Source of the DNA: an uncultured Saprospiraceae bacterium
GTDB taxonomy: Bacteria; Bacteroidota; Bacteroidia; Chitinophagales; Saprospiraceae
Assembly: GCA_937922815.1 (NCBI GenBank)
Contig: CALAJP010000014.1
Location: 1-36,063 of the forward strand
DNA length: 36,063 nt
Direction of reading: 5' to 3'
Every line of letters begins with the position of its first letter. Positions within the stretch are counted from its first letter, which is position 1. Shown piece by piece: positions 1 to 33,003 of the stretch. The translations under genes and the position numbers were made by a program. Under the pieces are notes generated by a model. The model had not been told where the DNA came from. It ran no database searches and saw only the letters and a program-made list of their open reading frames with translations.

Positions 1-3000
1 TCAGGGAGGAAACGCCCATTACTTTGACCATTCCAACCATTCTTATTCTGGAAATTACTTACCCTAAATACTTCGTTACCATATCTGTTAAAAATAGAAA
101 TAGTATTGATCGGGTAACGCTCTATACCTCGTATTTTGAGTTCATCATTCATTCCATCACCATTAGGCGAAATTGCAGAATACACTACGACAGGATCACA
201 AATAATATGAATATGTATAATGGCAGTATCTGTTATATCTCCTTGTTTTACAACATAAATAATCGAGTCTAAAACATCACATTTTGTTCCACTATGTTCA
301 TATTCTAATTCATTATTTTCGAGAATAGATACGCTACCATAAACAGGCGTTCCTATTATTTCAATATTAGCTAAGTTATTTGAATTTAAGTCATTTTCAA
401 GAGGAAGAAAAATAGTCGATGCACCTGTAACTAAAGTCAAATTATCATCAAAAGCTTTTACCCTTGTAACATCATTAATCATTTTGATAACAGTAGTATC
501 ACAAATACCATCTTCATTACAAAGTTCATAACACAACTCATCTCCTTTATTTAATACGCCCTCTAGTTCGATGCATAAATCATTATCAAGTTGTAATTCA
601 TTAACACTTAAATCATTCCCACAAAGCTTATTAACGATTACATTACTACCTACTTCTGAAGTATCTAAACAGAAAGATACGGTAGCTTCATTTTCAGGCC
701 AAAAAATATCAATGGTATCTTTGGTTGGTGAAACTGTATTGATATACAAATAATTAGTATCGCAAATGGTTTCAAAACAAGTAGCAAATTTAATGCTGTG
801 AATGTCATATGATTCACTTTTGATAAAAATGCAACGCTCTTCTTGATTAACAATTAAAGAATTTTCATCGTTAAGAATTTCTATGTTCTCGTCAAAACAA
901 AATTTAGTTTCTCTTTGAATAACAACCGTAAAAGTATCACTTTCAATAGGTTTAGATTCTATATTAATTTTTCTAAAGTCAGGCTCATAATTATTAGGGT
1001 TTTCTTTTGGGAAATCCATAATTGAATTTAATTTATTGATGGCATTCAAACTTATATTTTCATCTTTCTCTTTTTCATCTTTCTCTTTTTCATCAAATGC
1101 ATCATCTAAACCATCATTATCTGAATCTTTATTAATAGGCGTTTTATTAAAAGCTTCTTCTATATCTAAATACGAATCGCCATCGGAATCCGTATCTAAA
1201 TAATCATAAACAGAATCCTCATCAGTGTCTACAGGAAGATTCCAATTTTGATTATCGTCAAATTCAAATTCATCATCTAAACCGTTTTGGTTTCTATCAA
1301 TACCAAGAGGCATTATGGGTTTTTCGGTAGTAATTTGTGATTCAATCCAATCAACAATTCCGTCATTATCTGAATCTATATCCTTAAAATTGGGAATACC
1401 ATCACCATCTTCATCTATTGAAAATAAAATAGTTACATTAAAATCATCTCTTAAACCGTCTTTGTCTTTATCTTCAAAAATAGAACTTTTATAACCAACT
1501 TCAATAGCATCTAAAATTCCATCATTGTCAGAATCTATATCATATTTATCCAATATACCATCTCCATCTGTGTCTTCTTCTCCTTCTAGGTGGTCGGGAA
1601 TACCATCATTATCATCATCGAGGTCATATTTATCTAAAATACCATCGCCATCTTTATCAGCGTTTTGATTTGAACATTCATTAGTAATTGTATATTGAAT
1701 AGAATCTAAGCAATTACCACTCGAATAAATAAGGGTATAAACTCCTGCTTCAAGTCCTGTTCTATGTTTAGGCTTTTCTGTTGTTTGGCTAAGGTCAACC
1801 CACCTTAAACTTTCATTTGAGATAGGAGTATTTATTAAAATTTCTCCATTTTTAGAACCACAAGACTCGTGAGTTAATTCACTCGAAATTTCATTTTCAT
1901 TCTTGTCAATATTAACCAAAATACTATCTGTTTGATAACATCCGTTTTTAGACGATTCTAAAAAATACATTCCTTCAGAAACAGTATTGATTGTTGCATT
2001 TTTAATTTCAAGTTTTTCTTTATTAGGTGTTGTCCAAGTATATGTGTCAGCATTCCCTTCAACAAACAGTTTTAATGATTCCTCATCACAGTTCAAATAT
2101 AAATAAGACAAAGAAATATCGTTTCGTTGGATTTCTATATCTATATTTTTTTGGATAGAACACCCATTTTCCGTCTGTATTTCTACTAACAATTCTGTAC
2201 CTTCTTGAAGGTTTGACAATTGGATAGGGTTTTCTGTGGAGGGGCTATCCCATTTATCAGAATACCAAGTAATATCTTCTGAACCAAATACTTCTAATGA
2301 CAAAGAAGAACCAATACATAAAACCGTATCAGATGGTAAACTAATATTGGCAGGAAAATCTTCAATTTCAATTTTAAAAGTCGAATCTACTTGGCAACCC
2401 AAAGAATTAGACCAAGAAACCTGAAAAATATGTTCGCCAACAGCAAGTTCATCTTTAATTATCCACTCAACCGCATCATTGGATTTGTCCAAATATTTCC
2501 ATAGCCAATTGCCATTTTCTGTTACTCCTTTTAAAAGAATAGTACTTCCAACACATACTTTTGAAGGATACTCAAAAACAATAGGTTGCGAATCATTAAC
2601 AAGTAGATTTACTTTATTAGTACCTGAATTTAAGTTAATAATTTTATTTTCGGAAGGGCTATAAAATTCATTTTCAACCCATTCATAGTTAGTCGATTTT
2701 TCTCCTAAATCTACAAGAAGATATACATCCGTAAACGCAATATTTGAAAAAGAAAAATCTCCTTGTTTATTGGTAAGCGTAGTTTTTATGGTATCATTAT
2801 TTACATTCATTAAATGAATTGTAATTTCATCAATATCTACATTCGTGTTTGTACAAGTTAAATTTACTTTTCCTTCGATTAAAATTAAATCCTCATCATC
2901 ACAGTTATTAATAATTCGATATTCATAGGTCTTACTACACCCGTCAGAATTGGCTATTATAAATGAATCTGTACCTTGATTCAAATCATTTCTTGATTGT

Positions 3001-6000
3001 AAATTAGAACCATCATTCCAAAGAATAGAAAAACCCTGAGGCATATTGCTTATCGTAATACTTCCTTTATTTTCACAATCTTGATCAACTTTCGATATTA
3101 GAATATCATTAAAAGGATTTTTTTCAATACTAAAAATGGTATCCGAAGATAATTTGCAATTATCATTAATTCCTTCTAAGGTAACTTGAAAGTTAGTTTC
3201 TCCATCAGCGTTTTCAACAATAGGGCTTGGAGAAGTGTATTTTTCACCATTGATGGTCCAATTGTAAGTTTCGAAAACATTGGCATCAATAGAAAACAAG
3301 AGGCTATCACCAATACAATTGTTAGGTTCTAGGTTAATTAAGAAATTTGAACTAAGCTCAGTTATCGTAATTTCTCTAGTGATATTACAATTATTAGAAG
3401 TTGTTACTTCAGCATTATAAGTACCTAGTTGTTCCTTACTTATATTTTCAAGGGTAAAAGAAGAGTCAAAAGAAAAGAAATTATTAGGGCCAGTCCAGAA
3501 AACAGAGGAAGCTCCTATTGTTTCTAGTTTAATATTAGCCCCCAAACACACAGCAGTATCAGGAGTAAATGAAACAGGGGTGGTTTCTAAAACGGTAATT
3601 TCAGTTTGTGTGCTTCCATCACAACCTACAAGAGGGTCTACATATAAGTGTAAAGTGTGTTTACCAACACCTAAATCTTCAGAATTTAAACTTATATTTT
3701 GCTCATTAGATTCAAAACCAAAATCACTTTCCCATTTATATGTAGTTGTTTCTAATCCCCTTGCTGACATTTCTATTATTTCACCAAAACAGAATTCATT
3801 TTTATCAAATGTAATCTTTGGCGTTGCAGATCTGTTTACTTGAACCGTTTTTGTAATGGTACTTGAACAGCCAGCATCCGTTGTAACCTTTACTTCAAAT
3901 TCTCCATTATGAATAAGTTGTGCCGTAGGAATAATTAACTCTTTATCATAAGATACGAAGTCATTAGGCCCTTTCCATTGATAATAATCTCCATTGTCAG
4001 CAACCAGTTTAATCGAATCCTTTTCACAATAAATCGAATCTCCTGAAATCGTTCCGAAATCAGTTTTTTCCTGAATTATAACTTGTACTTTATCAACTAC
4101 TTGGCAACCATTGGCATCTGTTAATAAAACTGTTGCAAAAAAATCATCTACTACTTCGCCAATCGACAATATAGGTGCGTTAGAGTTCGCATTATTAAAA
4201 CTACCTACAGGAGTTGTCCACTGAAAATAATAGGGAGCTTCTCCGTTAATTGGTCTTGCAGACAATAAGGCTGAATTCGTTTGACAAAGTTTAACCGTGT
4301 CTGGAAAAAGCTTAACTGCTAAATCAGAACCATAGATAAAAATGGAAGAATCTTTAGTTGAGTTATTACATTCATCTGTTGCAGTCCAAATATATTTAAT
4401 CGAATCTTTCTTGCCATCGGTTTGGTAAAGTACAGAATCGAATTTTATTTCTACCGTAGAAATATTATCTATTGCAGTAACAGCACTAAAATCAATTTCT
4501 TCAGAACATATCATTTTTCCTTGAGGAATACCTGTTAAAATAGGAGCTTCATTATCTTTAAAACCACCATTTAATTCTGTTGGAAAGTTTTTGATTAAGT
4601 TTTTCAATGCCACTTTGCCTGATAAATCTAAATGATTTCCATTAGCAATATTCAAATTTTGCTGATTAGTAACCACATAACTGGATGGAATTCCAAAGAA
4701 AATATCATAATCTATTAATGGAGAGATTTCAAAAGTATATTTTCCATTAGCATCTGTCAATGTAGAGTCAAAAGTATTCGTGGACTTATTCAGAATTTTA
4801 ATCTTAATATTATCAAATACATCATCACCAACTTTATACAGTCCATCAGCATCACAATCCAAAAAAGCAACTCCATTAATGTTAGAAATACAAGCATTAA
4901 TATCTTTATTTCGATAATCTACATCAATACTATAATTTACATCCGTTTCGTAATCATCATTGATTTCTAAGTGGTTTCCTAATCCGTTTGTCCCAAATGG
5001 GCTATTAATAACCCCATTTTCATCAGCAGAAGAGCCTGTTTTGGCTTCGTAAACATCAAAACACCCATCATTATCAGAGTCTGTATCTAAAGCATCAGGA
5101 AATTCATCGTTATCAGAATTAATAAGAGTTAATTTTACCCCCCCCAACTCCTCATCGTAAGTATCATGCAAGCCATTAGAGTTTTCATCTTTCCAAGGAC
5201 CTTTGGGTATAAAGCCTTCTTTAGTTTGACTTTCAACATTATCTAACACACCATCATTATCAGAATCAAGGTCTAAATAATCTGGTTTTCCGTCTCCATC
5301 TGAATCTTTAGCTACACAAGAATTAGCGTCTATATCAGAAATCACATCACCAACACAAATGTCTAATAACGAATTAGTTCCATTTGAAGTAATTGAAGAA
5401 TAAATTAGATCAATAGAAGTAATTCCTAAATCAGATTCTATCCGAATTACAGAATAATTATCAGGGTTACTATTTCTATCATTTCCAGTACCTGACAAAG
5501 TATTAACACCATTCCACGAATCTGTTGCTCCTAAACTTATCGCAGAATACGAAGCTCCAGAAGCTACAAAAGTACAAGATTCATTAAAATCCATATCCCC
5601 TAAAGCCCATTCCATGTAAGTAACTGGTTTTTCCCAAGTCAAAGTAAGAGTATGCCCGTTATTTGAAAAGTTCAGATAAGTACCAGAATTGTTTTGTGTT
5701 CCTATCCTAATGTTTGAACTACTGGTCCCATTTAAAGTAACTTGTCCAAGAGCTGGATGGTTAAAAACACCACCACCATCTAATGAAGTTCCAATAGTTT
5801 CCCAATCAATTGAATTAGCTCCATTACAATTAGGAAACGTTGTAGAAGAATTATGGCTAATTTCTTTATTTTCACAACCTAATTCTAAAACATCAATTAT
5901 CCCATCATTATCGTCATCTATGTCTATAAAATCTCCAATACCATCCTTATCATTATCAATACAGATATTAATTGCAGAATCTAAGGCATAATTCTCGTAA

Positions 6001-7817
6001 GTGGTACTGAAGTTTATTATACCATTATCAATACTAGTTTCTAAGTTATCAGCATATCCATTGCTACCAACTATTGGCGTTGTGCTATTTTCATACACTA
6101 AACTATCAATAATAGCACCTGCACCTGATTCTGCTAAGTCCGAACAACCATCTCCATCTGAGTCTAAATCTAAATGGTTAGGTATCCCGTCATCATCTGT
6201 GTCTAAGAAATTTGTGCAAACCTCTTTAATACCCATACCTGAAAATACCGACCCATAACCTGCATTGTTTGAAGTTTGTTCCAAGGTAATTGTAGTTATT
6301 GAAGACTTTGCCGTAAAAATAATCTCCTCCTTATGGATTTCAGTTTCGGTGATTTTTATTTCGGTTATAATATTTAGGCTATTTAATAGTTTATTATCGT
6401 CTAAAATTTCTACTCTCCCATATTGAGGAATTGGTCCACTATTATGTCCACCATGATAAAATGTAAAACTATATGTCTTTCCTGGTGTAGTAGTAATTTC
6501 TCTTTGTACTTTACCATCTGTAGAGCCACCATCAATCATATCTCCACCCTTAGTCTGCCAACCATAAGCACCAACAGATACTATATCTACATTTCCTTTT
6601 ACTATTGTCCACCCTCCATAAGTACCGCTTGAAAGTCTACTATAACCTCCACTGATAGTACCTTTTGGTATTGATAAATCTGTAACATTAATAGAAGTAT
6701 CACAATCAATCATCTCGTTTACATCTAATATTCCATCATTATCATCGTCTATGTCTATAAAATCTCCAATACCATCGTTATCGTTATCATTACAAATATT
6801 AGTAGTAGAATCTAATGCATAGGTATCATAAGTGCTACCATAATTCATTAAACCATTATCAGCAATAGTTTCTAAGTTATCAGCATATCCATTGCTACCA
6901 ACTATTGGGGTTAAACTATTTTCATTTACTAAACTATCAATAATAGCACCTGCACCTGATTCTGCTAAGTCCGAACAACCATCTCCATCTGAATCTAAGT
7001 CTAAACGGTTTGGAATGCCATCATTATCAGTGTCTATATCTAAACAAGTATATGAAACTTCTGGGGCTGTACCTGAAGAAGAATAAGGAATATAATCAAA
7101 ATGGGTCATCTCAACACCTAAATCATCACCAACTCCTGGGGCAACATTAAACACAAATTTGACCTCTATATTATTAGTGCTTGGTATTAAAGAGCCGTCT
7201 ATTACTCTTACTCCTGCTTTAGAACCAGCAGTAGCAAATTCTCCTGAATAGACTCCATTTAGGAATAGTTCCAATTTTGCTGAGCTAGGATTTCTATCGT
7301 AATAATGACAACGATCAAACCTATAAAAAACTTCTTTTCCAGGAATAACTGTTATATTATCGTAAAGAACGACTTCATTTACAGCATTATCTCTAGACGT
7401 ACGGTGACACTTACCTATTACGAAAGATTCTATGTCAATCACATTTTCAAAACAATTTTGTTCATCAACGTCTAAAACTCCATCGTTATCATCATCTATA
7501 TCTTCGTCATCATTAATGCCATCATTGTCACTATCTGTAACCAGTATTACATCTGTTTTCAATAAAGGATAATTGTATAGCTCTTTCTTTGAATTGTAGA
7601 ATTTGATTGGATTTTCAAAGGTAGGTTCTTCTAAGCAGCGATTCCTCCAGTGTTGAATACTATTAGCATTGGAATTTGATGCTCTTGAAATGCTAACGTT
7701 TGTATTCAAAGAATCTTTATTAGCAGTATGAGCTGTATTAAAAAAGAAAATTAATGCTATTAGAAGTAAAAATTCTATTGAGGTATGCTTTTTAAAAATA
7801 GAACCTAGCTTATTCAT
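1..7817 (-). CDS. Giant secreted multidomain adhesin with TSP3 repeats and CHU_C-type C-terminus (partial)
   Basis: One uninterrupted minus-strand frame from the ATG at 7817 to the window edge, about 2605 codons, missing only the last few dozen residues. It starts with a signal peptide (residues 1-31: KK, then a Leu/Ile/Phe core ending near AHT). Acidic DxDxDG calcium-binding repeats of thrombospondin-type-3 kind lie near residues 95-118, 250-360, 530-640, 840-960 and in a dense array at 2050-2250. Between them are beta-sandwich segments: a Cna-B/SdrD-B-like domain near 970-1070, an HYR-like domain near 1090-1165, a run of Ig/PKD-like repeats to about 1640, a second Cna-B-like domain near 1640-1730, and a cadherin-like segment near 2440-2530. 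The end matches the gliding-motility-associated C-terminal family (SPNGDG, then FNRYGNEVF, W-N-G), a type B type IX secretion signal. It is expected on the cell surface, in adhesion or gliding. The specific ligand is unknown. Confidence 0.93.
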   Translation of the reverse strand, partial: MNKLGSIFKKHTSIEFLLLIALIFFFNTAHTANKDSLNTNVSISRASNSNANSIQHWRNRCLEEPTFENPIKFYNSKKELYNYPLLKTDVILVTDSDNDGINDDEDIDDDNDGVLDVDEQNCFENVIDIESFVIGKCHRTSRDNAVNEVVLYDNITVIPGKEVFYRFDRCHYYDRNPSSAKLELFLNGVYSGEFATAGSKAGVRVIDGSLIPSTNNIEVKFVFNVAPGVGDDLGVEMTHFDYIPYSSSGTAPEVSYTCLDIDTDNDGIPNRLDLDSDGDGCSDLAESGAGAIIDSLVNENSLTPIVGSNGYADNLETIADNGLMNYGSTYDTYALDSTTNICNDNDNDGIGDFIDIDDDNDGILDVNEMIDCDTSINVTDLSIPKGTISGGYSRLSSGTYGGWTIVKGNVDIVSVGAYGWQTKGGDMIDGGSTDGKVQREITTTPGKTYSFTFYHGGHNSGPIPQYGRVEILDDNKLLNSLNIITEIKITETEIHKEEIIFTAKSSITTITLEQTSNNAGYGSVFSGMGIKEVCTNFLDTDDDGIPNHLDLDSDGDGCSDLAESGAGAIIDSLVYENSTTPIVGSNGYADNLETSIDNGIINFSTTYENYALDSAINICIDNDKDGIGDFIDIDDDNDGIIDVLELGCENKEISHNSSTTFPNCNGANSIDWETIGTSLDGGGVFNHPALGQVTLNGTSSSNIRIGTQNNSGTYLNFSNNGHTLTLTWEKPVTYMEWALGDMDFNESCTFVASGASYSAISLGATDSWNGVNTLSGTGNDRNSNPDNYSVIRIESDLGITSIDLIYSSITSNGTNSLLDICVGDVISDIDANSCVAKDSDGDGKPDYLDLDSDNDGVLDNVESQTKEGFIPKGPWKDENSNGLHDTYDEELGGVKLTLINSDNDEFPDALDTDSDNDGCFDVYEAKTGSSADENGVINSPFGTNGLGNHLEINDDYETDVNYSIDVDYRNKDINACISNINGVAFLDCDADGLYKVGDDVFDNIKIKILNKSTNTFDSTLTDANGKYTFEISPLIDYDIFFGIPSSYVVTNQQNLNIANGNHLDLSGKVALKNLIKNFPTELNGGFKDNEAPILTGIPQGKMICSEEIDFSAVTAIDNISTVEIKFDSVLYQTDGKKDSIKYIWTATDECNNSTKDSSIFIYGSDLAVKLFPDTVKLCQTNSALLSARPINGEAPYYFQWTTPVGSFNNANSNAPILSIGEVVDDFFATVLLTDANGCQVVDKVQVIIQEKTDFGTISGDSIYCEKDSIKLVADNGDYYQWKGPNDFVSYDKELIIPTAQLIHNGEFEVKVTTDAGCSSTITKTVQVNRSATPKITFDKNEFCFGEIIEMSARGLETTTYKWESDFGFESNEQNISLNSEDLGVGKHTLHLYVDPLVGCDGSTQTEITVLETTPVSFTPDTAVCLGANIKLETIGASSVFWTGPNNFFSFDSSFTLENISKEQLGTYNAEVTTSNNCNITREITITELSSNFLINLEPNNCIGDSLLFSIDANVFETYNWTINGEKYTSPSPIVENADGETNFQVTLEGINDNCKLSSDTIFSIEKNPFNDILISKVDQDCENKGSITISNMPQGFSILWNDGSNLQSRNDLNQGTDSFIIANSDGCSKTYEYRIINNCDDEDLILIEGKVNLTCTNTNVDIDEITIHLMNVNNDTIKTTLTNKQGDFSFSNIAFTDVYLLVDLGEKSTNYEWVENEFYSPSENKIINLNSGTNKVNLLVNDSQPIVFEYPSKVCVGSTILLKGVTENGNWLWKYLDKSNDAVEWIIKDELAVGEHIFQVSWSNSLGCQVDSTFKIEIEDFPANISLPSDTVLCIGSSLSLEVFGSEDITWYSDKWDSPSTENPIQLSNLQEGTELLVEIQTENGCSIQKNIDIEIQRNDISLSYLYLNCDEESLKLFVEGNADTYTWTTPNKEKLEIKNATINTVSEGMYFLESSKNGCYQTDSILVNIDKNENEISSELTHESCGSKNGEILINTPISNESLRWVDLSQTTEKPKHRTGLEAGVYTLIYSSGNCLDSIQYTITNECSNQNADKDGDGILDKYDLDDDNDGIPDHLEGEEDTDGDGILDKYDIDSDNDGILDAIEVGYKSSIFEDKDKDGLRDDFNVTILFSIDEDGDGIPNFKDIDSDNDGIVDWIESQITTEKPIMPLGIDRNQNGLDDEFEFDDNQNWNLPVDTDEDSVYDYLDTDSDGDSYLDIEEAFNKTPINKDSDNDGLDDAFDEKEKDEKEKDENISLNAINKLNSIMDFPKENPNNYEPDFRKINIESKPIESDTFTVVIQRETKFCFDENIEILNDENSLIVNQEERCIFIKSESYDIHSIKFATCFETICDTNYLYINTVSPTKDTIDIFWPENEATVSFCLDTSEVGSNVIVNKLCGNDLSVNELQLDNDLCIELEGVLNKGDELCYELCNEDGICDTTVIKMINDVTRVKAFDDNLTLVTGASTIFLPLENDLNSNNLANIEIIGTPVYGSVSILENNELEYEHSGTKCDVLDSIIYVVKQGDITDTAIIHIHIICDPVVVYSAISPNGDGMNDELKIRGIERYPINTISIFNRYGNEVFRVSNFQNKNGWNGQSNGRFLP
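1061..1090 (-). repeat. Two tandem 15-bp units in the giant adhesin
   Basis: The unit catctttctcttttt occurs twice in a row and encodes DEKEK DEKEK, a highly charged linker between the dense TSP3 array and the downstream segment. The unit length keeps the frame, so copy-number change would only lengthen or shorten the linker. Confidence 0.8.
5886..6208 (-). repeat. Internal duplication in the giant adhesin, copy B
   Basis: Second copy of the ~107-residue TSP3-containing module described at 6718-7040. The sequence between the copies encodes a different beta-sandwich domain, so the duplicated unit is the whole ~832 bp module with divergence in its middle. A third, much more diverged relative lies around 4990-5310 (DTDSDNDGCFD...). 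The high DNA identity between A and B suggests recent duplication or gene conversion. Confidence 0.88.
6718..7040 (-). repeat. Internal duplication in the giant adhesin, copy A
   Basis: About 323 bp encoding a ~107-residue module (DTDNDGIP ... DIDDDNDGIL) that recurs at 5886-6208. Many stretches are identical at the DNA level, including about 64 bp starting at actaaactatcaataatagc. Protein differences are few and mostly conservative. The module combines DxDxDG calcium-binding loops with a short linker that contains AESGAGAIIDSLV. The spacing between copies is about 832 bp. Confidence 0.9.
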
Positions 7818-25966: not shown

Positions 25967-27076
25967 TTATGACGATTTTGCTTTTTTAAACTTGCACGTT
26001 AGGACTGTAAAGTCGTCAGGATATTCTGTTTTTCCTTTGAATAAGGATATCCGTTCTAATAACTCTAAGTTAAATTCGGTCGCACTTAATTCACATCTAT
26101 TGTTAACAAACTCGTGTAGCAGCTTTTCGTCTAAATAATCGCCTCTATCGTTTTGCAAATCGGTTAAGCCGTCAGTATAAACCAACAACATTCCGTCAAA
26201 GACATTTATTTCGCCAACTTCAATCCCCATTAGGTTTTTAAAATTCCCTAAAATAGTACAGCCTTTATCTAGAATTTGCGTTTTTTTATTGATAACCATG
26301 ATAGGAGGTTGGTGTCCTGCGTTTACATATTCTAATCTACCGTCGTTAGGACAATAAATACCCAAAAACATAGTCAAAAATCTATTGCCCTGAGTGGTGT
26401 TAAATAATGCAAAGTTTAGTTCTTTAATCAAGTCTTCAATCGTATCCATTTTGTTTACGCAATACCTTAGCGTACTTTGGAAATTGGACATTAGTAGTGC
26501 GGCGGCAATTCCTTTTCCTGAGATATCGGCAACGCAAAATAGCATTCTACCGTCTTTTAATTCTATGTAGTCGTAGTAATCACCACCAATTCCAATTTGT
26601 GGCATATAGATACTTGCCAACTCCATGCTGTCGTTGGAAGGTAGCACATCAGGAACAAGCATCAATTGCATTTCAGAAGCTAATTCCATTTCACGAAGCA
26701 TTCTTTCTCGCTCCAATTTGTTTTTAAAGAGTTTTTTATTCTCAATAGCAACAGCAACAATATTAGAGATAGCAGTAATGAATTGAATTTTGTTATATCC
26801 ATCTTGAGACTTGCTATCTACTTCGCCCAGTAATACATAAGCAATGGGGTCTCCATTGTGAATAACAGGAATGATGATTTGGAATAATTTTAGCACTTTA
26901 TCATCTTGGCCTTCTAATGTTTTCATTCTTTCGAATTGATTAAAAGGAGGAATTTCATCTTCATTAAAGATTTCCTTAGGAACACCAATAGAAGATACAC
27001 ATTTCCATTTATTAAAGTTTAAGAAAAGTGCCATTTTCTTGACGCCCAACTCCCATCCCAAAAAGGAGTTATACAT
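25967..27076 (-). CDS. GAF-SpoIIE/PP2C-type protein phosphatase (N-terminus extends further upstream)
   Basis: 369 residues from the first ATG, but the coding frame clearly continues upstream to 27238 (see next entry). The N-terminal part is a GAF-like sensor, truncated if the ATG is used. A helical linker lies at 112-140, then the PP2C-type SpoIIE domain (about 150-365). Metal-binding motifs are visible: GGDYYDY (Asp166, Asp169), VADISGKG (Asp184), YTDGLTD (near 315) and DDFTVL (near 359). It should dephosphorylate Ser/Thr, typically an anti-sigma-factor antagonist in a partner-switching pathway; no such partner is encoded here. It is the first gene of the run ending with the mutase. Confidence 0.87.
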   Translation of the reverse strand: MYNSFLGWELGVKKMALFLNFNKWKCVSSIGVPKEIFNEDEIPPFNQFERMKTLEGQDDKVLKLFQIIIPVIHNGDPIAYVLLGEVDSKSQDGYNKIQFITAISNIVAVAIENKKLFKNKLERERMLREMELASEMQLMLVPDVLPSNDSMELASIYMPQIGIGGDYYDYIELKDGRMLFCVADISGKGIAAALLMSNFQSTLRYCVNKMDTIEDLIKELNFALFNTTQGNRFLTMFLGIYCPNDGRLEYVNAGHQPPIMVINKKTQILDKGCTILGNFKNLMGIEVGEINVFDGMLLVYTDGLTDLQNDRGDYLDEKLLHEFVNNRCELSATEFNLELLERISLFKGKTEYPDDFTVLTCKFKKAKSS

Positions 27077-27241
27077 TTTAAATAATTCGTCCGCAGGAAT
27101 ATTGTTATTTACTCCCTGAGAGATATTAAGTAGTCCGTTAATTTGTAATTGCTTTAAATGAATCGCATTTTCTAATTGATCTAATTTAGAAGATTCTTCA
27201 TTTAGCTTTTTGTTGGTTATTTTCAGAATCGGAATTAAATT
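27077..27241 (-). other. Upstream coding extension of the phosphatase without a standard start codon
   Basis: 54 codons in frame with the phosphatase, from 27238 to 27077. They read as coiled coil plus the start of a GAF domain (KKLNEESSKLDQLENA, then HLKQLQINGLLNISQ and NNNIPADELFKM). A TAA stop lies just upstream at 27242-27244, and no ATG, GTG or TTG occurs between it and 27076. Candidate non-standard starts are ATT codons at 27235 and 27229 and a CTG at 27226. A lost start, an upstream frameshift or a sequence error are the alternatives. Confidence 0.75.
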
Positions 27242-27431
27242 TTATTGTTGATAAAAATGATAATCTAATTATAGGTATAATTTACATTTTTTATCGATTC
27301 AATTCGAAGTTTGCTAGTTTTTTTTATACCAAAGTTGCGTTTTTATCTTTTTTTGAATAAAAAACAAACTTTTAAGATTGAATGTATTAGAAGAGGAGGG
27401 GGCTTGGTATTTGAAAAGAGAAGCAGTTTTT

Positions 27432-27580
27432 GGGCAAAAAAAAAGACCAACCACTTTTAAGGCTAGTCTTTTTGTGTAATCGATTCCATGAACATACTCT
27501 TTCGAGTTATTTCTTTTAGAACAACATTTTTTCTTGCTTTCAATAATATACACGAGAATATAATGCGGATGGTTGGGTAG
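27432..27580 (-). repeat. 149-bp tandem direct repeat, copy 1 (distal to acs)
   Basis: It differs from copy 2 by two bases (A/G at 27450 in the terminator stem, and A/C in caataatata versus caatactata). It contains a terminator at its left end and about 110 bp of unique 3'-UTR-like sequence. A 22-bp spacer separates the copies. Confidence 0.93.
27436..27470 (-). terminator. Second (distal) acs terminator
   Basis: On the minus strand, aagactagcc pairs with ggttggtctt (10 pairs including two G-T), with an 8-nt loop, followed by T9. On the plus strand the same arms have mismatches, so it works for the minus strand. Confidence 0.75.
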
Positions 27581-27602: not shown

Positions 27603-27751
27603 GGGCAAAAAAAAAGACCAGCCACTTTTAAGGCTAGTCTTTTTGTGTAATCGATTCCATGAACATACTCTTTCGAGTTATTTCTTTTAGAACAACATTT
27701 TTTCTTGCTTTCAATACTATACACGAGAATATAATGCGGATGGTTGGGTAG
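27603..27751 (-). repeat. 149-bp tandem direct repeat, copy 2 (proximal to acs)
   Basis: Begins gggcaaaaaaaaagaccagc and ends ggttgggtag, like copy 1. It lies 45 bp past the acs stop codon, so the acs transcript should run through it to its terminator. Confidence 0.93.
27607..27641 (-). terminator. First (proximal) acs terminator
   Basis: On the minus strand, aagactagcc pairs with ggctggtctt (10 pairs, one G-T), with an 8-nt loop, followed by T9. The single base difference from the distal copy turns a G-T into a G-C pair, so pairing is kept in both. Confidence 0.82.
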
Positions 27752-29909: not shown

Positions 29910-31259
29910 CTAATGATTTTTACCAAAACTTTTCGCCAATTCTTTAAGGTTCGTTTTTCCGAAATTACCGCTAGACATAAATACGACGATGGAATTTGTT
30001 TTTTCTAAATGGGTTATTTGTTCGATGGCTTTGTGTGGATGATTAAAAACGGAGAGTTTTTCATTGTCAAAAGCTTCTTTGATAAATGCTAATGAAAGTG
30101 GAGGCATCTTCTTCATTTCTAAGGTATGTGAACTATAACAAACAATTGCCTCGTCAGCCGAATCAAGAGCATTTTTGTATTCAGGTAAAAAATCTTTATT
30201 CAGGCTACTGAAAGTGTGTAGCTCTAAAGCAACAATTAGTTTTTTATCAAAATATTGTTTTTTCAGACTATCGACCGTCGCTTTTACTTTTGATGGAGCA
30301 TGTGCAAAATCTAAAAAAACTTTCGTTTGATTGGATTCACCTAATAATTCCAATCGTTTAGCCGCTCCTTTAAATTCCTTTAATGCTTCAAAAAATATTT
30401 CTTTAGATACGCCTAGTTCTTTACACACCAAGTATGCTGCTTTTAAGTTCTGCATATTATGCGTTCCTGTAATGGCTAGAGGGTACTTGTCTTCTACAAT
30501 AAAACGATGGTTTTTATCAATTTTATAATCAAAAGAAGTATAGGGTATGTTCGAGTATGAAGAATTGTTTATCATCTCATTTAAGATTAAATCATTCTCA
30601 TAATGAATAATTTTGCATTCCTCAGATAATGAATCAATATAAATTTGAAATTGTTGACAATAATTTTCAAAAGTGGGAAAAACATTAATGTGATCCCAAG
30701 CAATACCTGTAATTACGGTTAAGTGGGGTTGGTAGTGCATAATTTTGGGGCGACGGTCTATTGGTGACGATAGGTATTCGTCTCCTTCAAAAATCATAAC
30801 AGGAGCGTCAGAGATGCGAACCATGTTGGTGAAACCTTCTAATTGAGCACCTACCATATAGTCCGTATCAATGTTAGCATGTTTTAATACTTGGAGTATC
30901 ATGGCAGTAGTGCTGGTTTTACCATGACTTCCAGCAATCACAATACGCTTTTTATCTTTGGCAGCCATACCTAAATATTCAGGATATGAAACGATAGGGA
31001 TTTTTAAATCCTGAGCGGCTTTTAATTCAGGGTTATCAGGTCGTGCATGCATGCCTAATATCACCAAATCTAAATCTTTAGTAATGCGTTCTGGTTTCCA
31101 GCCCATTTGTTTAGGCAATAGCCCTACGTTTTCAAGTTTGCTTCTACTAGGCTCGTATATTTCATCATCAGAACCACTTACGGCATGGTCGTTGTTATAT
31201 AGTTCGATAGCAAGATTATGCATGGCACTGCCTCCAATGGCGATAAAATGTATTCTCAA
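29910..31259 (-). CDS. mpl: UDP-N-acetylmuramate:L-alanyl-gamma-D-glutamyl-meso-diaminopimelate ligase
   Basis: 449 residues, Mur-ligase family. N-terminal UDP-binding domain: HFIAIGGSAMHNLAIELY, resembling MurC but with GSAM. The ATP loop is AGSHGKTSTT (109-118). The central domain has FEGDEYLSSPIDRRPK and GIAWDHINVFPT; the C-terminal domain has LDFAHAPSKVKATVDSL. The GDEYLSSP-DRRPK stretch is typical of Mpl rather than MurC. It attaches the recycled tripeptide to UDP-MurNAc in peptidoglycan recycling. It stands alone on the minus strand, divergent from the small-lipoprotein/YtxJ/MnmD group. A minus-strand TAACTTTG (31398-31391) is a possible -7 element without a good -33. Confidence 0.94.
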   Translation of the reverse strand: MRIHFIAIGGSAMHNLAIELYNNDHAVSGSDDEIYEPSRSKLENVGLLPKQMGWKPERITKDLDLVILGMHARPDNPELKAAQDLKIPIVSYPEYLGMAAKDKKRIVIAGSHGKTSTTAMILQVLKHANIDTDYMVGAQLEGFTNMVRISDAPVMIFEGDEYLSSPIDRRPKIMHYQPHLTVITGIAWDHINVFPTFENYCQQFQIYIDSLSEECKIIHYENDLILNEMINNSSYSNIPYTSFDYKIDKNHRFIVEDKYPLAITGTHNMQNLKAAYLVCKELGVSKEIFFEALKEFKGAAKRLELLGESNQTKVFLDFAHAPSKVKATVDSLKKQYFDKKLIVALELHTFSSLNKDFLPEYKNALDSADEAIVCYSSHTLEMKKMPPLSLAFIKEAFDNEKLSVFNHPHKAIEQITHLEKTNSIVVFMSSGNFGKTNLKELAKSFGKNH

Positions 31260-32822: not shown

Positions 32823-32894
32823 GGCCCGTTCGTCTAGGGGTTAGGACGCCAGGTTTTCATCCTGGAAACAGGGGTTCGATTCCCCTACGGGCTA
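32823..32894 (+). tRNA. tRNA-Glu (anticodon UUC), copy 1
   Basis: 72 nt. Acceptor ggcccgt pairs with acgggct (G1-U72 wobble), discriminator A. The anticodon arm ccagg-ttTTCat-cctgg gives anticodon TTC. The T arm is caggggttcgattcccct-like. No CCA is encoded. U34 of this tRNA is the position acted on by MnmEG and MnmD. Confidence 0.97.
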
Positions 32895-32931: not shown

Positions 32932-33003
32932 GGCCCGTTCGTCTAGGGGTTAGGACGCCAGGTTTTCATCCTGGAAACAGGGGTTCGATTCCCCTACGGG
33001 CTA
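32932..33003 (+). tRNA. tRNA-Glu (anticodon UUC), copy 2
   Basis: Identical over all 72 nt to copy 1, which lies 109 bp upstream. The 37-bp spacer is AT-rich and has no promoter of its own, so both are probably cut from one transcript that ends at the terminator at 33008-33043. Confidence 0.97.

Follow-up and report, generated by a model that had tools for sequence, protein, structure and literature searches.

A gene for a SpoIIE/PP2C-type serine phosphatase, carried by an uncultured Saprospiraceae bacterium, lacks the usual start codon that its examined relatives possess: either a rare and weak start codon is used, or the first bases of the gene have been shifted by a recent mutation or a sequencing error. 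When the window (the whole stretch of 36,063 nucleotides that was analysed) is read directly, the phosphatase frame on the minus strand comprises 424 codons, from AAT 27241 to a stop codon ending at 25967, and is bounded upstream by an in-frame TAA at 27242–27244. This TAA (27244–27242) is followed by AAT 27241, TTA 27238, ATT 27235, CCG 27232, ATT 27229, CTG 27226, AAA 27223 and ATA 27220, and the same direct reading reveals no ATG, GTG or TTG in frame between 27241 and ATG 27076. The initial annotation had described 54 open codons without a standard start; the absence holds, whereas the count becomes 55, as AAT 27241 had been omitted. When ORFs are ranked by the coding signal upstream of their first standard start, the phosphatase ORF heads the list of the 121 coding-like ones that 231 kb of this genome contain. 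With the remainder of the frame uninterrupted over 424 codons, the gene gives no impression of decay.

Judging from sequence comparison and structure models, the gene is an intact member of its class, with an N-terminal coiled coil, a GAF-fold domain and a PP2C domain of predicted phosphatase activity, and the protein is an ordinary representative of a well-known phosphatase family. The SpoIIE/PP2C domain (residues 230–418; 25988–26554, minus strand) matches Pfam SpoIIE (PF07228) with 118 bits against a cut-off of 25; all 23 members of homologue set A3 match this profile too, and residues D221, D239, D357, D409 and D410, which we take to be the conserved acidic metal-binding residues of PP2C, are invariant in 23 sequences. 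The PP2C fold is matched by SiaA (6k4e_B; Z 26.8, rmsd 2.8, 240 residues) and by the RsbU domain of Rv1364c (3ke6_A; Z 24.9, rmsd 2.5, 219 residues) among known structures. The GAF-fold domain and the helix that follows it (residues 46–198; 26648–27106, minus strand) are assigned from the structure model and its fold matches: the middle part of the protein, modelled alone, reaches a pLDDT of 84.5 and a Foldseek match to 3eea_A at E 1.3e-5, and the model superimposes on 3eea_B with Z 12.2 and an rmsd of 2.7 over 125 residues. At E ≤ 1 the window protein gives no match to a Pfam GAF family, the only entry being SpoVT_C (0.036, below its cut-off), and none of the 23 members of set A3 has a Pfam GAF match at 0.01. 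The N-terminus is a long helix (residues 3–45), with a mean model confidence of 52 in its first ten residues.

The position at which relatives begin was compared over 176 loci; after the removal of 41 duplicates and one cut locus, 134 distinct usable ones remained, the window gene included, with positions numbered backwards, in codons, from the anchor KQLQIN, which sits at 27154 in the window. In 133 of 133 relatives a standard start occurs eight or more codons ahead of this anchor, leaving the window gene as the sole one of the 134 without it. ATG lies exactly at -23 in 89 of these relatives and elsewhere in 33, whilst 11 have only GTG or TTG; in the 122 homologues having ATG, the one nearest the usual place is found 10–28 codons before the anchor, and 22 of the 133 have no standard start beyond -19. 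In the window the family position -23 falls on 27223 and is occupied by AAA; the two codons preceding it are CTG (-24) and ATT (-25). All 133 homologues start upstream of the conserved N-terminal coiled-coil block (27101–27190, minus strand; homologous to LERELHLKQLQINRLLNITQAINNN of relatives), which bears out the earlier view that the protein begins well upstream of 27076. Homologues beginning at 27076 itself, which the initial annotation had set against such a view, number none of the 133. It is therefore improbable that the start was lost recently, with the gene now silent or its product, if any, beginning at ATG 27076 (27074–27076, minus strand) and hence deprived of the coiled coil and of half the first helix of the GAF fold. 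This ATG is the first standard start in frame, but its context is poor (-2.43 bits, 4th percentile of 71 starts) and initiation there would remove invariant residues such as E24, L29, Q31–Q33, N35 and N45. As had been proposed, it would also cut into the GAF domain, because residue 56 falls within helix 50–64 of the modelled GAF-fold domain.

How far upstream of the anchor the frame is still protein can be read from a profile built on the 89 homologues whose ATG lies at -23. At positions -13 to -1 the window gene scores 16.8 bits (relatives 29.5 ± 3.9), a value reached by 0 of 5000 random open sequences, so the frame is protein down to about 27184–27190. Homology is firm only to that point in the sequence comparison, and further upstream the evidence is neutral. 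At positions -22 to -14 the score is -1.6, below all 89 homologues of that class and better than 92% of random sequences (8% reach it). This low score was considered as evidence against coding and set aside, since 12 of 21 homologues with other, divergent N-termini score as low or lower, and the profile thus does not discriminate there. Codon usage of the 13 codons from 27241 (27241–27203) is not coding-like (-3.7 bits), whereas the 13 codons from 27202 give +9.1 bits; -3.5 bits or less in the first 13 codons is seen in 8% of 99 genes, and among random AT-rich sequences 31% keep 13 codons free of stops by chance. Another open frame on the same strand, that of TTT 27239 (27200–27239), ends at TGA 27200 and has no start; its codon usage over the 13 codons 27239–27203 is coding-like (+3.7 bits), a value attained by 3% of random sequences.

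A frameshift near 27240 that had removed a longer, true N-terminus, one of the explanations put forward in the initial annotation, is not supported, as no upstream standard start stays open to 27240 in any of the three frames. ATG 27287 is followed directly by TAA; beyond this stop its frame is open as far as TGA 27200 but contains no ATG, GTG or TTG. Of the remaining two frames, one is closed at 27237 and the other at 27244, and neither has a start since its preceding stop; TTG 27302 meets a stop after two codons. Nor is a long N-terminus expected, since the ATG of the relatives lies so close to the anchor. Whichever of the two main explanations considered below applies, a near-cognate start or an indel, the gene is neither missing a long N-terminus nor naturally starting at 27076. 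Searches for promoters gave one of the sigma-70 type (3.6 expected, not above chance) and none of the Bacteroidetes type (TTG/TANNTTFG-like: TTG with TANNTTTG, one mismatch; 0.12 expected), and the RNA fold of 27156–27300 has a z of -1.45.

The reading that we tentatively favour, at not far short of an even chance, is that translation begins at a near-cognate codon, CTG 27226 being the likeliest and ATT 27229 the next choice. Start contexts were scored with a start-site matrix from 71 genes of the window genome. CTG (27224–27226, minus strand, as are all candidates here; position -24) is the best near-cognate candidate, with 2.16 bits (38th percentile of the 71 starts), a usable context. If it is the start, the coding sequence extends over 25967–27226, the open frame itself running up to 27241. 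ATT at -25 (27227–27229; 1.31 bits, 31st percentile) comes second, ATT at -27 (27233–27235; -0.33 bits, 18th percentile) is weaker, and ATA at -22 (27218–27220) has a poor context of -4.42 bits. Of the codons singled out earlier as possible starts, CTG 27226 and ATT 27229 indeed lie within two codons of the family start position. In favour of a near-cognate start are this positional match, the firm homology at -13 to -1 and the usable context of CTG, together with the otherwise intact frame, the precedents infC and sigR, and a score at -22 to -14 that is usual for relatives with divergent N-termini. Against it, such a start is shared by none of the 133 homologues, none of which lacks a standard one, and the codon usage of 27241–27203 does not look like coding sequence. 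Chance alone, moreover, often places an in-frame near-cognate codon upstream of a start: 37 of 71 genes have one, five of them with at least 2.16 bits. As no examined relative has a non-standard start in common with it, the gene is a single-genome oddity; its genus is represented by one genome in the comparison set, and single-protein searches of genome contigs and viral contigs confirmed no closer relative. A single-base consensus error or a strain mixture may instead hide an ordinary start codon near 27220–27229: 89 homologues start at the corresponding place, CTG and ATT are each one base away from ATG, and the genome is an assembly of 308 contigs; single-base consensus errors are rare in general, however, and we regard this as the least probable of the explanations, below even a start at 27076.

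The main competitor of a near-cognate start is an ATG that the initial annotation did not mention. ATG 27201 opens a six-codon frame ending at TAG 27183 (27181–27201, minus strand) and lies 25 nt downstream of CTG 27226, one nucleotide out of the phosphatase frame, so it can be the true start only if a single nucleotide was gained or lost somewhere from 27201 to about 27187, whether during assembly or by recent mutation. Its context of 3.79 bits (61st percentile of the 71 starts) is excellent for this genome and is reached by 1% of random sequences; it is better than that of CTG, which counts against the near-cognate codon, as 24 of the 71 genome genes have some out-of-frame ATG at +4 to +45 but none has one of this quality. 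The A-rich context agrees with the pattern described for Flavobacterium johnsoniae, where, in the portion of that study available, A at -3, -6, -12 and -13 helps initiation; the same source describes a shortage of AUG around start sites in Bacteroidetes (PMC6847099). From about 27202 onwards the codon usage is of the coding type, and a start at 27201, equivalent to about -16, is within the family range, given the 22 homologues without a standard start beyond -19. A second gene of the same assembly, a methyltransferase-like one (L100:6283-6986, contig C230), seems, judging from the sequence of this genome, to be split by a frameshift at a T6 run; of its two parts, the second resembles the second half of Methyltransf_25, though at an E of 0.01 that falls short of the cut-off, and the first gives no hit to a methyltransferase. 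Weighing against an indel, homopolymers in the interval concerned do not exceed three bases, indels seldom hit any particular 14-nt stretch, and most homologues start at -23 rather than -16. We consider it possible, yet on the doubtful side, that ATG 27201 is the true start. A programmed frameshift from this ATG would be a remote variant of the same idea, and inspection by eye of ATG AAG AAT CTT CTA AAT TAG revealed no slip site of the X XXY YYZ type. The indel thus has start context and codon usage on its side; for the near-cognate codon speak its agreement with the family start position and the fact that indels are rare. The evidence available does not decide between them; we lean slightly towards the near-cognate codon, and the weights given to the two were set by judgement, not by calculation.

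If CTG 27226, or otherwise ATT 27229, is used for initiation at the place where relatives start, the initiator tRNA would pair only weakly with it. The protein level would then be low for that reason, and would be set by how strictly IF3 rejects the codon. Speaking against such a start, according to the accessible text of one study, CUG accounts for only 0.024% of start codons in bacteria and has 0.86% of the efficiency of AUG (PMC11497404). The fuller proposition, that this GAF-PP2C phosphatase is translated from CUG (or AUU) and is hence scarce and under IF3 initiation-fidelity control, the phylum being one without Shine-Dalgarno sequences in its mRNAs (as stated for Bacteroidota in an excerpt of PMC6847099), is more tentative than the choice of codon itself. 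Elsewhere in the genome lies infC (L062, contig C41), whose start is likely TTG in all but one of the 21 genomes examined from the order, this genome included (L062 and L228–L247). The exception is L234, which has ATG; in L239, ATG and GTG also occur further upstream. The TTG start of infC is possibly a conserved IF3 autoregulation signal.

A search of 398 genomes of the family found a homologue of the phosphatase (E 1e-60 or less) in 357. Gene order was followed in named loci, the best 80 of at least 229 relatives from a profile search, which are mostly Saprospiraceae and include Phaeodactylibacter, Lewinella, Flavilitoribacter and Saprospira grandis. Within the flanks of these best 80 of at least 229, the order is partly kept, with a TPR protein in 37 of 80, a TM2/TPR protein in 37 of 80 (the TPR and TM2/TPR queries can both match one gene) and a CBS protein in 35 of 80, whilst acs, located upstream of the phosphatase gene in the window, has no match in any of the 80 flanks.

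The window also carries two tandem repeat copies, 99% alike and about 140–150 nt long (27432–27580 and 27603–27751, minus strand), with additional copies in the same genome at C71:8546-8702, C157:7987-8130 and, partially, C21:5611-5677. The element consists of a box (ACCCAACC-N16-CGTGTAT), a conserved core of about 70 nt and a hairpin followed by a T run, and it folds with z of -3.75 and -2.57; from these sequence features it looks like a family of small-RNA genes. It has no match among Rfam families, and in 120 family genomes it was matched along its length in the window genome only, one other genome showing a 26-nt match inside an ORF. The exact box occurs six times in the genome and not at all in the reversed control; because five of the six are at elements and one lies about 420 nt upstream of an ECF sigma-factor ORF (L203:1948-2532), an ECF-controlled small-RNA regulon is plausible. 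The box alone is found in 11 of 112 genomes, and no literature joining Saprospiraceae, an ECF sigma factor and small RNA was found. At the Rfam gathering threshold, the only matches were two tandem tRNA genes with identical scores (window 32823–32894 and 32932–33003, plus strand). The window also holds a MurC/Mpl-like ligase gene (29910–31259, minus strand), whose first possible start is TTG and whose best NCBIfam match, murC, is below its cut-off, and an ORF of at least 2605 codons (3–7817, minus strand) that runs off the window end.

Under whichever explanation of the start, a gene caller limited to ATG, GTG and TTG would shorten a conserved sensor phosphatase by some 50 residues, invariant positions among them. 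If an indel is responsible, the case is an ordinary artefact or a private mutation. If CTG or ATT is truly used, a Bacteroidota signalling gene would join the few with non-standard starts, as an addition to a small set rather than a new mechanism, and would be open to a test of IF3 control.

Compared with known systems, the window protein shares the PP2C fold and a regulatory region in front of it with SpoIIE/RsbU-type phosphatases that have a sensory N-terminus, such as RsbU, SiaA and RssB of Pseudomonas; in contrast to these, its GAF-fold sensor is seen by structure only and its gene has no standard start codon. A well-placed ATG just out of frame is what frameshifted gene starts present, and a similar event seems to have befallen the methyltransferase-like gene mentioned above, but no homopolymer occurs at the required place in the phosphatase gene. 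As far as the available part of one source goes (PMC5472188), tested non-standard starts do exist: E. coli infC begins with ATT and Streptomyces sigR with GTC, the latter being repressed by IF3, and both resemble the window gene in that its start, too, would lie outside ATG, GTG and TTG, sigR being, like the phosphatase, a regulatory gene as well. The starts of infC and sigR were established by experiment, whereas that of the window gene is deduced and common to none of its 133 relatives.
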